Notes under the pieces: model-generated
What the model was told of the DNA's origin: nothing
Databases searched by the model: none
Seen by the model: only the letters and a program-made list of their open reading frames with translations
Made by a program: the position numbers and the translations under genes
Source of the DNA: Oscillospiraceae bacterium
Lineage (GTDB): Bacteria > Bacillota > Clostridia > UBA1381 > UBA9506
Length of the DNA stretch: 53,986 nt
Assembly (NCBI GenBank): GCA_015068615.1
Contig: SVKE01000002.1
Location: 1-53,986, forward strand
Direction of reading: 5' to 3'
Part shown: piece after piece, positions 14,740-53,986 of the stretch
Layout of the letters: every line of letters begins with the position of its first letter
Position numbering within the stretch: the first letter of the stretch is position 1

Positions 14740-14800
14740 ATTTTTTTATTTGCATAGATGGCTTTCGTCACACAAAAATCAAGACAGCAAATAAAAAAAT
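14740..14800 (-). promoter_or_regulatory. AT-only 14-bp stem between FMN aptamer and ribU RBS
   Basis: Minus strand ATTTTTTTATTTGC (14800-14787) pairs perfectly with GCAAATAAAAAAAT (14753-14740). The 3' strand ends 3 bases before AAAGGGAG. It may be part of the riboswitch expression platform. A smaller ATGAAA/TTTCAT hairpin just before the T-run overlaps the aptamer's last strand. How these switch is not clear from reading alone. Confidence 0.45.
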
Positions 14801-14805
14801 GAAAC

Positions 14806-14938
14806 CTTCTTTCATCCAGACTTGCTTTCGCTCACTGTCGGCTTTGGAATCACACCAAAATCGGCCTGTTTACAGGCTCGCGGGCTCAGAAAAATTTCTA
14901 TTACCGCCGGTCGGGATTTCCACCCTGCCCTGAAGATT
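14806..14938 (-). ncRNA. FMN riboswitch (RFN element)
   Basis: The minus strand carries the RFN conserved blocks in order: ATCTTCAGGGCAGGGTG, GACCGGCGGTA, GAGCCCGCGAGC, GATTTTGGTGTGATTCCAAAGCCGACAG and AGTCTGGATGAAAGAAGG. It senses flavin mononucleotide and normally shuts off the downstream gene when FMN is plentiful, here the riboflavin transporter gene ribU. Confidence 0.96.
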
Positions 14939-14966
14939 GTTACTATGAAACTTTCTACACATAATT

Positions 14967-15090: not shown

Positions 15091-16617
15091 ATGAAAAAAA
15101 AGATTTTTGCCTTGGTTATGGCAACGATGTTTCTTCTGCTCTCAACAGTCGCCGTGGGAGCTGAATCCGAGCAGACCACATATCTCGTAGTGGATAAGCC
15201 CATTACCGTGACCTATAATGGTGACGCTATTGTTTTCCCTGACGCGCTGCCCCTTATAGAGGCCGAAAGAACGCTAGTTCCCATCCGCGCTATTTTAGAA
15301 CGTGCTGAGTTGACCGTGAATTTTGATGCTGAGTCCCGCTTGGTCACCGCTGAAAAGGACGGCCTCTTGATTTCTATGCCCATTGACAGCGCTGAGGCTA
15401 CTGTTTTTGCGGGTGATACCTCCAAGACTGTGACCTTAGAGGCCCCGGCAACCATCATTGATGACAGAACCTATGTGCCGATTCGCTTCATAGCAGAAAG
15501 CCTTGGCGCCAAGGTGAACTGGAATCCAAACGGCCGTGAGGTTGTTATTATTGACATTGCCGAATGGAAGGCTGAAATTGCCGAAAATTCAGAATTTTTC
15601 TCTATGCTGCTGGATACACCTCTTGCCCAGTCACCTCAAGCCGGCGATACCACTGGGAGCTATAACATTTCCGTCACAATGAAAAACGACTTGGTGCCCC
15701 GTTATAAAAACACTATTGATATCTCTATTGATTTTACTGCTACAGAGGTTTTTGATGGTGCAAATACCGGCTCTAACCTCATATTGGAGGCCGATTTAAG
15801 AGATCTGGCTTCCCTTCCTGCCGAGGACGAGGAAGAACTTGCTATGATGGATGTGTATGCCAAGAAGCACCGCATTGATCTTGACATGGTGGTGGACGAG
15901 GACTGGAACCTGTATCTAAAGAGCAAGGCCATTGTGCAAATTCTGCGCGATTCCGGTCAGGAACGAATTGCCGATAATATCGGAGATAAATACGTGAAGC
16001 TTTCTCTACGTGATGTGCTTGGTGCCCTTCTCCATCTGCAGGTCGATTTTGAAGAGCTAATTGCCAAATCTAACACCTTGGGTGAACTTCTTGAAAACTT
16101 AATCATAGAGGATGATATGCTCTACAGTCAAAGCGTGTATCTGATTGATTCTTATATCTCTCAGTATATCAGCATTTACAGCAACGATTTCTTTACAAAA
16201 ACCGAAAAGAAAGACGGTTCTGTGCACTGGAGCTATGCGCTGGACAGTGATGCATATTTGAACATGGTGCTTGATATGAGTCTTAAAGATGTAGCAAAAG
16301 AAGAGGCTGAAGCCGTCAGGGAAGCCTTGCAGGAAACGCTTGAGGGCATGGATATGACGCTGCACATGGATTATGTGATGAAGGATGGTATAGCGACTCG
16401 GGCAGAGGCTGTTATGAGCAATACCACAATCGCAGCCAATAGCATACATCCCGAGGAAACCACCGAAACCAAGCTGGATATGCAGGTGTCGACTGCAGTT
16501 AGACCATTTGATAAAAGAATGGATAAAAAGGTCGGCATTCCTACAAAATTTGTTGAGTTGGATGAAATCCTTGGTTTTCCTTTGGCTGAATATTTCAATC
16601 TTTTGTTAATCGGCTAA
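15091..16617 (+). CDS. Secreted protein with copper amine oxidase N-terminal-like domain
   Basis: A 508-aa exported protein. The signal peptide (about 1-23, IFALVMATMFLLLSTVAVGA) is followed by a copper-amine-oxidase-N1-like domain (about 30-155) with the repeated signature TLVPIRAILE and TYVPIRFIAESLGAKVNW. In Clostridia this domain marks cell-surface proteins and does not imply copper or amine oxidation. The remaining 350 residues are acidic and alternating in character, with no motif I recognise and no cysteine motif. RBS AAGGAG plus AAAGGA. It is monocistronic and converges on a hydrolase with the same domain. Probably a wall-associated protein; its function is unknown. Confidence 0.8.
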   Translation: MKKKIFALVMATMFLLLSTVAVGAESEQTTYLVVDKPITVTYNGDAIVFPDALPLIEAERTLVPIRAILERAELTVNFDAESRLVTAEKDGLLISMPIDSAEATVFAGDTSKTVTLEAPATIIDDRTYVPIRFIAESLGAKVNWNPNGREVVIIDIAEWKAEIAENSEFFSMLLDTPLAQSPQAGDTTGSYNISVTMKNDLVPRYKNTIDISIDFTATEVFDGANTGSNLILEADLRDLASLPAEDEEELAMMDVYAKKHRIDLDMVVDEDWNLYLKSKAIVQILRDSGQERIADNIGDKYVKLSLRDVLGALLHLQVDFEELIAKSNTLGELLENLIIEDDMLYSQSVYLIDSYISQYISIYSNDFFTKTEKKDGSVHWSYALDSDAYLNMVLDMSLKDVAKEEAEAVREALQETLEGMDMTLHMDYVMKDGIATRAEAVMSNTTIAANSIHPEETTETKLDMQVSTAVRPFDKRMDKKVGIPTKFVELDEILGFPLAEYFNLLLIG

Positions 16618-16630
16618 AGCCTGGAGATAC

Positions 16631-16691
16631 AAAAAAGGCTGCTACAATCTACCCTGCCCTTTGGGTTTGCGTTTTGTAGCAGCCTTTTTTT
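16631..16691. terminator. Bidirectional terminator between convergent genes
   Basis: AAAAAAGGCTGCTACAA / TTGTAGCAGCCTTTTTT, a perfect 17-bp stem with a 26-nt loop. Runs of T follow on both strands, so it can serve both the CuAO_N-like gene and the SleB-type hydrolase gene. Confidence 0.88.
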
Positions 16692-25633: not shown

Positions 25634-26731
25634 TTACACATTAAATCGGAAGAGCACCACATCGCCGTCCTGCATGACGTATTCTTTGCCCTCAGAGCGA
25701 ACCAGACCCTTTTCCCTGGCTGCGGTCATGCCGCCGCATTCCATTAAATCGGTATAGGCAACAACCTCTGCTCGGATAAAGCCTTTTTCAAAATCCGTGT
25801 GAATTTTTCCGGCGGCGCCGGGTGCCTTGGTGCCACGGGTAATTGTCCAGGCGCGCACCTCCGGTTCACCGGCGGTTAAATAGCTGATGAGACCAAGCAG
25901 CTTATAGCTCTTTTTCACCAATCTGTCAAGGCCGGATTCTGATATGCCCAATTCGTTTAAAAACTCCAGTTTTTCTGCAGGTTCCAGAGCTGATACGTCC
26001 TCTTCAATTTTGGCCGAAATCGGCATGACCTCTGAGCCTTCCTTTTCTGCCATTTCTGTTAACTCGCGCACCATGACGTTGTCCTCTATACCATTTAAAA
26101 AGTCATCCTCTGAAACATTTGCTGCATATAACACGGGCTTTAAGGTCAAAAGCGGCAAATCACGCAAAAGCTCCTCCTCTTCCTCGGAAAAGCTGCGGGC
26201 GCGTGCCGGGCTTCCGCCCTCTAATAGTGCCTTTATTTCCTCTAAAAGAGAGAGCTCCTGCTGATATTTTTTTTCGCCGGATTTCATCATTTTTTTAGTT
26301 CTGTCAATGCGTTTATCCACCATTTCGATGTCTGCAAAAATCAGCTCCAGCTGAATGGTTTCCACATCACGCAGCGGCGAAACTGAGCCCTCTACATGAA
26401 CAATGTTGGAGTCCTCGAAGCATCGTACCACATGCACAATGGCATCCACCTCGCGGATGTGTGATAAAAATTTGTTGCCAAGGCCTTCGCCGCGGCTTGC
26501 GCCCTTTACAAGACCGGCTATATCCACAAACTCAATAACGGCATGTGTCACCTTTTGGGGATGGTACATTTCTGCCAGAGCGTCCAGGCGCTCGTCAGGC
26601 ACCGGCACCACGCCGACATTTGGCTCAATGGTGCAAAAGGGGTAATTGGCAGATTCGGCACCCGCCTGTGTAATTGCATTAAAAAGCGTTGACTTGCCCA
26701 CGTTGGGAAGCCCCACAATACCTAATTTCAT
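25634..26731 (-). CDS. ychF: Redox-regulated ATPase/GTPase YchF
   Basis: An Obg-family nucleotide hydrolase (OLA1 homologue) that binds ATP better than GTP and associates with ribosomes. The 365-aa protein shows G1 [12 protein letters not shown], the family-typical [15 protein letters not shown]3 [17 protein letters not shown], and the C-terminal TGS domain with [33 protein letters not shown] and the end LFRFNV. RBS AAGGAG. It is single, with a 349-base gap upstream that holds an unusual structured element. Confidence 0.96.
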
Positions 26732-26889
26732 TCTATATCACATCTCCTTGATTTATCAGTGTTTTAAGCGTTTAATATGTAGTTACTTCGCCATTTCTCG
26801 CCATTTTTGCAAATAATGGTTTTCAAATTACATCACGCATTATTATATAATTAGGTGATAGAAAAGATGCAAATCATTCTACCAGGAGC

Positions 26890-26917
26890 AAAAATGCTTG
26901 CTTGCAAGGGCATTTTT
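26890..26917. terminator. Terminator-like hairpin downstream of the structured element
   Basis: AAAAATG CTTG / CAAG GG CATTTTT, an 11-bp stem with a 2-nt bulge. Both strands end in five Ts. It could end a minus-strand transcript starting near 27003 or read-through from the phosphatase gene. Confidence 0.55.
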
Positions 26918-26928
26918 ACGACGCCGTC

Positions 26929-27012
26929 AATTGGCATACACAGGCTGAAAGACTGCAGAAAGCCGTCAGGCTTTTCAGAATTTTATAAAATAAAATTCTG
27001 TATATGCCAATT
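26929..27012 (-). other. Structured 84-bp element bounded by 15-bp inverted repeats; candidate ncRNA
   Basis: The two ends are AATTGGCATACACAG and, on the other strand, AATTGGCATATACAG (14 of 15 identical). Inside are two hairpins: AAAGCC GTCA GGCTTT (26959-26974) and CAGAATTTTAT AAA ATAAAATTCTG (26976-27000, perfect 11 bp). On the minus strand a promoter precedes it and a terminator hairpin follows. It may be a small RNA of about 115 nt, a leader of ychF, or a miniature inverted-repeat element. I do not recognise a known RNA family. The remaining parts of the 26732-27080 gap show no gene. Confidence 0.45.
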
Positions 27013-27038
27013 ATATCACATTGGTGTACATTTATCAA
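27010..27038 (-). promoter_or_regulatory. Promoter in front of the structured element
   Basis: Minus strand TTGATA, 17 bases, TATAAT, with TGA before the -10 (extended -10). Predicted start about 27003, inside the right inverted repeat. Confidence 0.6.
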
Positions 27039-53742: not shown

Positions 53743-53764
53743 AAGGCGCGGAAAACCGCGCCTT
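53743..53764 (-). terminator. Terminator after rnpB
   Basis: AAGGCGCGG / CCGCGCCTT, 4-nt loop, followed by TGTTTATT on the minus strand. Confidence 0.8.
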
Positions 53765-53769
53765 AAATA

Positions 53770-53986
53770 AGCAATCCTGTAAGCCGAGTTCTGTATTTGA
53801 TGATCATCTATCTAGACCGGATATTACTATCCGGTTCAAGCCACCGCCAAGTACAGGCATGCCGGGCCGGCTCAGCCTGTACGAGCCAATACGGTGTTGC
53901 TTCGGATGGGGTTTACAGAGCCGTTACGTCTCCGCAACGCTGGTGAGCTCTTACCTCACCTTTCCACCATCGCCGGTAAAAAACCG
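53770..53986 (-). ncRNA. rnpB: RNase P RNA, 3' part (cut by window edge)
   Basis: The catalytic RNA of RNase P, which makes tRNA 5' ends. The minus strand has GGTGAGGTAAGAGCTCACCAGC, the conserved loop region AACCCCATCCGAAGCAA, and the 3' strand ACAGAACTCGGCTTACAG that forms helix P4. About 215 nt are inside the window; the 5' part, including the other P4 strand, lies beyond base 53986. The exact 3' end is estimated. Confidence 0.95.

Follow-up and report, generated by a model that had tools for sequence, protein, structure and literature searches.

The ychF leader

The window analysed here is a 53,986-nucleotide stretch of an Oscillospiraceae genome in which ychF (25634..26731, minus strand; 16 full-length relatives at 80-93% identity) starts at 26731, downstream of a promoter that carries an insertion. 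The initial annotation had placed a promoter here, TTGATA-17-TATAAT, and it is indeed found at 27038..27010 on the minus strand, with 11 of 12 matches and a TG one base 5' of the -10 box. Its -35 hexamer, TTGATA (27033..27038), lies outside the repeat described below and is assigned to the host ychF promoter, the same promoter type being seen without the element in relatives. The extended -10, TGATATAAT (27010..27018), is read as both target site and left edge of the repeat.

The 15-bp inverted repeat reported with the promoter is equally present, its arms being 93% complementary and spanning 84 bp. They form a stem, P1, whose 5' arm (26998..27012), beginning with the AAT of the -10 box, is supported by the inverted repeat, the fold and covariation, and whose 3' arm (26929..26943) is supported by the inverted repeat and covariation. 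Within it, hairpins H1 (AATTTTATTTTATAAAATT; 26977..26998) and H2 (AAAGCC TGAC GGCTTT; 26959..26974) are seen in the fold and in compensatory changes (helices 2 and 3, respectively), and H3 (26941..26957), weak here, is clear in the sequences of related copies. Towards ychF follow a near-invariant core, TTGACGGCGTCG (26919..26930), in which the N of GACGGC(N) shows covariation with the base that precedes the terminal TGG; the right hairpin AAAAATGCCCTTGCAAGCAAGCATTTTT (26890..26917), in the alignment of copies the most conserved part of the family; a right end, TGGTAGAAT (26876..26884), which comparison of copies identifies as a decayed terminal TGGTATAAT; and a tail module, GATTTGCATCTTTTCTATCACCTAATTATATAAT (26842..26875), terminal in many related copies and ending in a second TATAAT (26842-26847). 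All of these features are on the minus strand.

The structured stretch is thus placed within the ychF leader. Taken as RNA, its 133 nt fold at -42.4 kcal/mol, compared with -28.0 +/- 3.4 kcal/mol for shuffled sequence (z = -4.2; none of 200 shuffles equal), so that hairpins had rightly been proposed. The repeat unit is larger than originally given, running past 26886 to the right end and second TATAAT. The supposed terminator fares worse: its T-run lies in the 3' arm of the right hairpin, which was not flagged as a terminator, and the claim is weak because the run belongs to the stem.

The absence of a known RNA family was borne out, Rfam giving no match to the stretch at the gathering threshold and none that convinces at E<=1, where a single lncRNA match of 11 bits is attributed to chance. 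A dfrA-dnaX match (39 bits) beside one relative was rejected, being below the cut-off and covering A+T-rich promoter DNA only. Elsewhere in the window are an FMN riboswitch (14800-14941, minus strand, 99 bits) and a bacterial RNase P RNA (53764-53986, minus strand) truncated by the window end.

A family of dispersed repeats

The stretch that precedes ychF represents a single copy of an interspersed repeat of ~130-170 bp. Nine matches to it were found in its own genome and about 120 in relatives, spread over 27 of 41 genomes, and fetching the DNA after an exact-pattern scan of species genomes brought the number of distinct copies to 169. Across the class, the repeat core occurs in 28 of 391 sampled genomes, representing at least nine families; the reversed control pattern has no match in the same 391. 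Carriers among named records are uncultured gut Clostridia, Oscillospiraceae and Ruminococcus assemblies, along with one labelled Syntrophomonadaceae. Searches of phages and plasmids gave no match and only one of 2.9 million viral contigs has the repeat; spread by phage or plasmid was rejected on the grounds that essentially no copies reside there.

Nearly all copies share a common plan: an extended -10 (TRTGN TATAAT), the P1 stem, inner hairpins, core, right hairpin and right end. P1 begins within the last three bases of TATAAT and encloses inner hairpins, about three in number, whose sequence varies. The almost invariant module of the family is TTGACGGCNTCG..AAAAATGCCCTTGCAAGCAAGCATTTTT, with a core consensus of ATTGACGGC(N)TCG, a right hairpin AAAAATGC-CCTTGCAAGCAA-GCATTTTT and a right end (N')TGGTATAAT, the terminal TGGTATAAT being intact or decayed depending on the copy. 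In the genus of the window it has frequently decayed to TGGTAGAAT or TGGTAAAAT and is followed by the tail of ~34 nt ending in TATAAT. The base N of GACGGC(N)TC may be G, T or C, and it is Watson-Crick complementary to N' in 115 of 119 copies, three types of pair being represented. Like MITEs, the copies are dispersed, lack coding capacity and are shorter than about 200 bp; terminal inverted repeats across the whole element were not found, the 15-bp inverted repeat closing the left two thirds only and leaving the right hairpin module outside.

Units also occur in tandem, joined at the -10 box with periods of about 125 or 170. Array length differs between close species: at one orthologous locus there are at least two tandem units in G015 (L054) and one unit plus a partial one in G019 (L266). 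At another locus (L052 978-1161) stand three mini-units of 63 nt each, reduced to the P1 ends plus the right hairpin module; they look like the product of a loss of the inner hairpins followed by tandem amplification of what was left. Ten partial matches comprise nine lone 5' halves and one tail module. The 5' halves stand at promoters, having decayed from the right with the left promoter retained, and none of the ten qualifies as an autonomous parent: each is either a copy in decay or a module standing alone at a promoter.

A second family of hairpin modules (TATAAT-GATTTCATC..GATGAAATC..., hairpins separated by AATTCATG) is joined to the same GCATCTTTYCTRTCACCTAATTATATAAT tail (L046 2550-4050; L317 100-200; L049 3392-3557; L179). 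Unrelated modules therefore share the TATAAT joint.

Insertion at the -10 box

Among the copies with enough upstream DNA, TATAAT directly abuts the repeat on its left in 145 of 158 and a one-mismatch form does so in 10, against a background of 8% of random windows. A -35 TTG is found at 17-nt spacing in 68% of 92 non-redundant copies, compared with 3% at other offsets, and apart from this promoter the upstream sequences are unrelated. Part of the association may stem from the target sequence alone, because a -35 is also frequent at TGNTATAAT sites of the same DNA that lack the element: TTG is present at 16-18 nt in 47% of these, compared with 74% of element sites.

None of the 16 relatives has the element upstream of ychF, and most of them show a comparable -35 and TATAAT-type -10 there; the clearest of these element-free promoters, L201 (G001) and L203 (G007), have the similar form TTGATAA...TGTGATATAAT. 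Filled and empty sites elsewhere were sought by querying with joined flanks, which yielded three pairs, G019 versus G015. Comparison of L264 (filled; ...AATAAGGTATAAT / element / ...TATGGTATAATAATTATAGC) with L291 (empty; ...AATAAGGTATAATAAATATAGC) reveals a clean insertion, bounded by GGTATAAT at either end. For L265/L292 and L261/L293, homology breaks and resumes at or near TATAAT, the filled alleles having extra repeats that adjoin the element tail or are nested in it. L259 versus L294 was left out, the downstream genes being different. Judged from these empty orthologous promoters, the element has inserted precisely at the -10 box.

There is one TATAAT in the empty site and two in the filled, and many copies have a conserved TGG before the right one, which may belong to the element rather than be a target duplication. 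The initial annotation had offered a miniature inverted-repeat or mobile element as its second possibility, to be recognised by many copies with target duplications. The many copies, the empty sites and the direct repeats of TATAAT all favour that reading, with target duplication suggested only in so far as TATAAT stands at both ends.

Covariation and the nature of the structure

In the sequence class to which the window belongs (25 sequences), 96.9% of cells pair and 19 of 40 pairs have changed on both sides, giving a covariation score of 0.287 compared with 0.143 for shuffled sequences and at most 0.085 with slid partners. Compensatory changes affect 6 of 11 P1 pairs, in the first 8 alignment columns past the -10 box. 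Over all classes, the three positions N1-N3 after TATAAT pair in 88, 81 and 75% of cases, versus about 40% when shuffled. For a second sequence class RNAalifold recovered the right hairpin only, because the inner part aligns poorly.

At sigma-A promoters transcription starts about 7 nt past the -10 box, from which we infer that most P1 bases immediately after it are not transcribed. Since P1 pairs covary in this normally untranscribed -10/+1 spacer, the simplest reading is that selection probably acts on a DNA structure formed in the single-stranded state.

A probable promoter-targeting mobile repeat

We interpret the element, with a probability of roughly 0.8, as a small, structured, non-autonomous mobile repeat, MITE- or REP-like, whose target is the -10 box of sigma-A promoters and whose orientation follows that of the promoter. 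The copies, their boundaries, the empty sites, the promoter context and the covariation are observed directly, and mobility is presumed. It is the mobile element of the initial annotation, in a form undescribed in the literature searched, which contained no report of repeats targeted to -10 boxes or of the core sequences, only one unrelated 12-mer.

On this interpretation the element would enter at the -10 box, always oriented with the promoter, with both host boxes, -35 and -10, preserved on its left, and its right end would supply a second TATAAT, through either the extended -10 (TGGTATAAT) or the tail module. The gene would retain a -10 at the old distance and gain a structured leader from the left promoter. 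With this second TATAAT at its far end, the repeat could therefore spread into promoters without parting the gene from its -10, and a right end that recreates the target would allow units to stack in tandem arrays. Since the left edge is a promoter of working type, a transcript should still run through the element, and the effect on transcription may be near-neutral. Movement would probably take place as folded single-stranded DNA, in which P1 would link the left TATAAT to the conserved ATTGACGGC core, the other end of the core being coupled to the right end through the covarying base pair; an enzyme acting in trans would presumably provide mobility.

One speculative refinement, to which we give rather little weight, is that the repeat captures the -10 element itself, as non-template DNA left single-stranded in a promoter kept open by RNA polymerase. 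Such capture would account for the TATAAT site, the fixed direction, the preference for promoters with a -35 and the joining of unrelated hairpin modules at the same TATAAT.

Alternative explanations

A possible, if doubtful, alternative is a REP/BIME-type palindromic repeat moved by a RAYT or another Y1 (HUH) transposase. IS200/IS605 elements follow a guide and cleavage-site logic next to hairpins, and the hairpins of the present repeat, beside a fixed cleavage-like site and with the covarying N/N' pair, recall ends of the IS200/IS605 type, a likeness that may be drawn by analogy and not as an argument for membership. Y1 transposases (PF01797) occur in 25 of 41 relatives and RAYT-like ones in many of the genomes. 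However, none reached threshold in G000, G017, G018 and G019, which carry copies and are incomplete assemblies, and the RAYT and IS200 loci examined are flanked by different palindromes and not by the present repeat, so that both were rejected as carriers. Neither these Y1 loci nor the ten partial matches revealed an autonomous relative or a transposase with matching ends. One RAYT-like Y1 gene (KRKPTRLKGYDYSTPGAYFITIC...; L241-L249), present once or a few times per genome in many relatives, has no obvious flanking palindromes of the present family. Another palindrome (GTAGGGGCTTGCTCCTGCC... / ...GAGCAAGCCCGTTCCCTAC) lies near or inside some copies (in L038 around 16550-16650; in L259 on the downstream side of the element) and resembles a REP of the RAYT type. 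The REP/BIME tags were sought beside the palindrome: GTAG is missing and CGTC is not conserved. The present repeat shares with REP/BIME sequences and their RAYTs short palindromes, arrays and a logic of single-stranded folding (PMC2817692, PMC3733652), but its unit is larger and multi-hairpin, lacks those tags and was found flanking no RAYT.

Improbable, though less easily set aside than those that follow, is a cis-regulatory leader, an attenuator or 5'-end stabiliser inserted originally but retained for mRNA regulation or stability. Its structure is conserved, and most copies with a callable downstream gene stand between that gene and the promoter, with the gene in sense orientation (116, as against 28 in antisense, among which several seem to be spurious ORFs); the gene lies a median of 170 nt from the core. 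Yet these genes, named by eye as ychF, prfA, pyruvate kinase, SMC, an Era-like GTPase and response regulators, together with a tRNA gene or operon, have no pathway in common; decayed 5'-half remnants are common; and the ychF leaders of all examined relatives lack the element. In three related genomes (L096, L147, L158) the element apparently precedes the same response-regulator-like gene, according to a noisy all-against-all BLAST of flanks. Its retention there is possible and would suit a leader function.

A small RNA gene of about 115-130 nt with its own promoter and terminator, duplicated around the genome, is very unlikely, even though a promoter, a strong fold and a hairpin exist. The free-standing small RNA of the initial annotation is not supported: the unit lies in the ychF leader, its copies stand before unrelated genes with unrelated flanks on both sides, empty sites exist, there is neither a canonical terminator nor an Rfam match, and stem pairs covary 5' of the expected transcription start, in the -10/+1 spacer. 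A regulated cruciform or protein-binding operator at the promoter, suggested by an inverted repeat that takes in the last bases of the -10, can scarcely be reconciled with copies at unrelated genes, variable arms, no common operator and promoters that do without the element.

Comparison with known repeats

Pneumococcal BOX elements are modular, structured intergenic repeats with variable internal modules, and by description the present repeat is like them in all of these respects; we know of no targeting of -10 boxes by BOX elements. The repeats bcr1-bcr18 of the Bacillus cereus group, of 100-400 bp and with features of mobile elements, include bcr1, for which a site-specific recombination-like mobility at the A+T motif TTTAT has been proposed (PMC6542083 and references therein). 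They are likewise small, mobile-element-like and associated with a short A+T target motif, but differ in sequence and host group and, as far as descriptions can be compared, bcr1 is tied to TTTAT whereas the present repeat is tied to a -10 TATAAT with a -35 upstream. RUP, NEMIS/Correia, ERIC and YPAL are non-coding elements of less than 200 bp with stable long stem-loops that duplicate their target on insertion (PMC2229807). RUP-like elements carry inverted repeats at their termini and insert mainly at TA; in the present repeat, by contrast, the left two thirds are closed and the repeated target is the -10 box.

Mobile elements that avoid harm usually settle where insertion is safe, for instance at 3' ends of tRNA genes or in intergenic REP sequences. 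If our interpretation is true, entering the -10 box of active promoters while bringing a replacement -10 would be a different route to harmlessness. The filled and empty promoters provide a ready set for expression tests, and the repeat could rewire 5' untranslated regions over many families of gut Clostridia.
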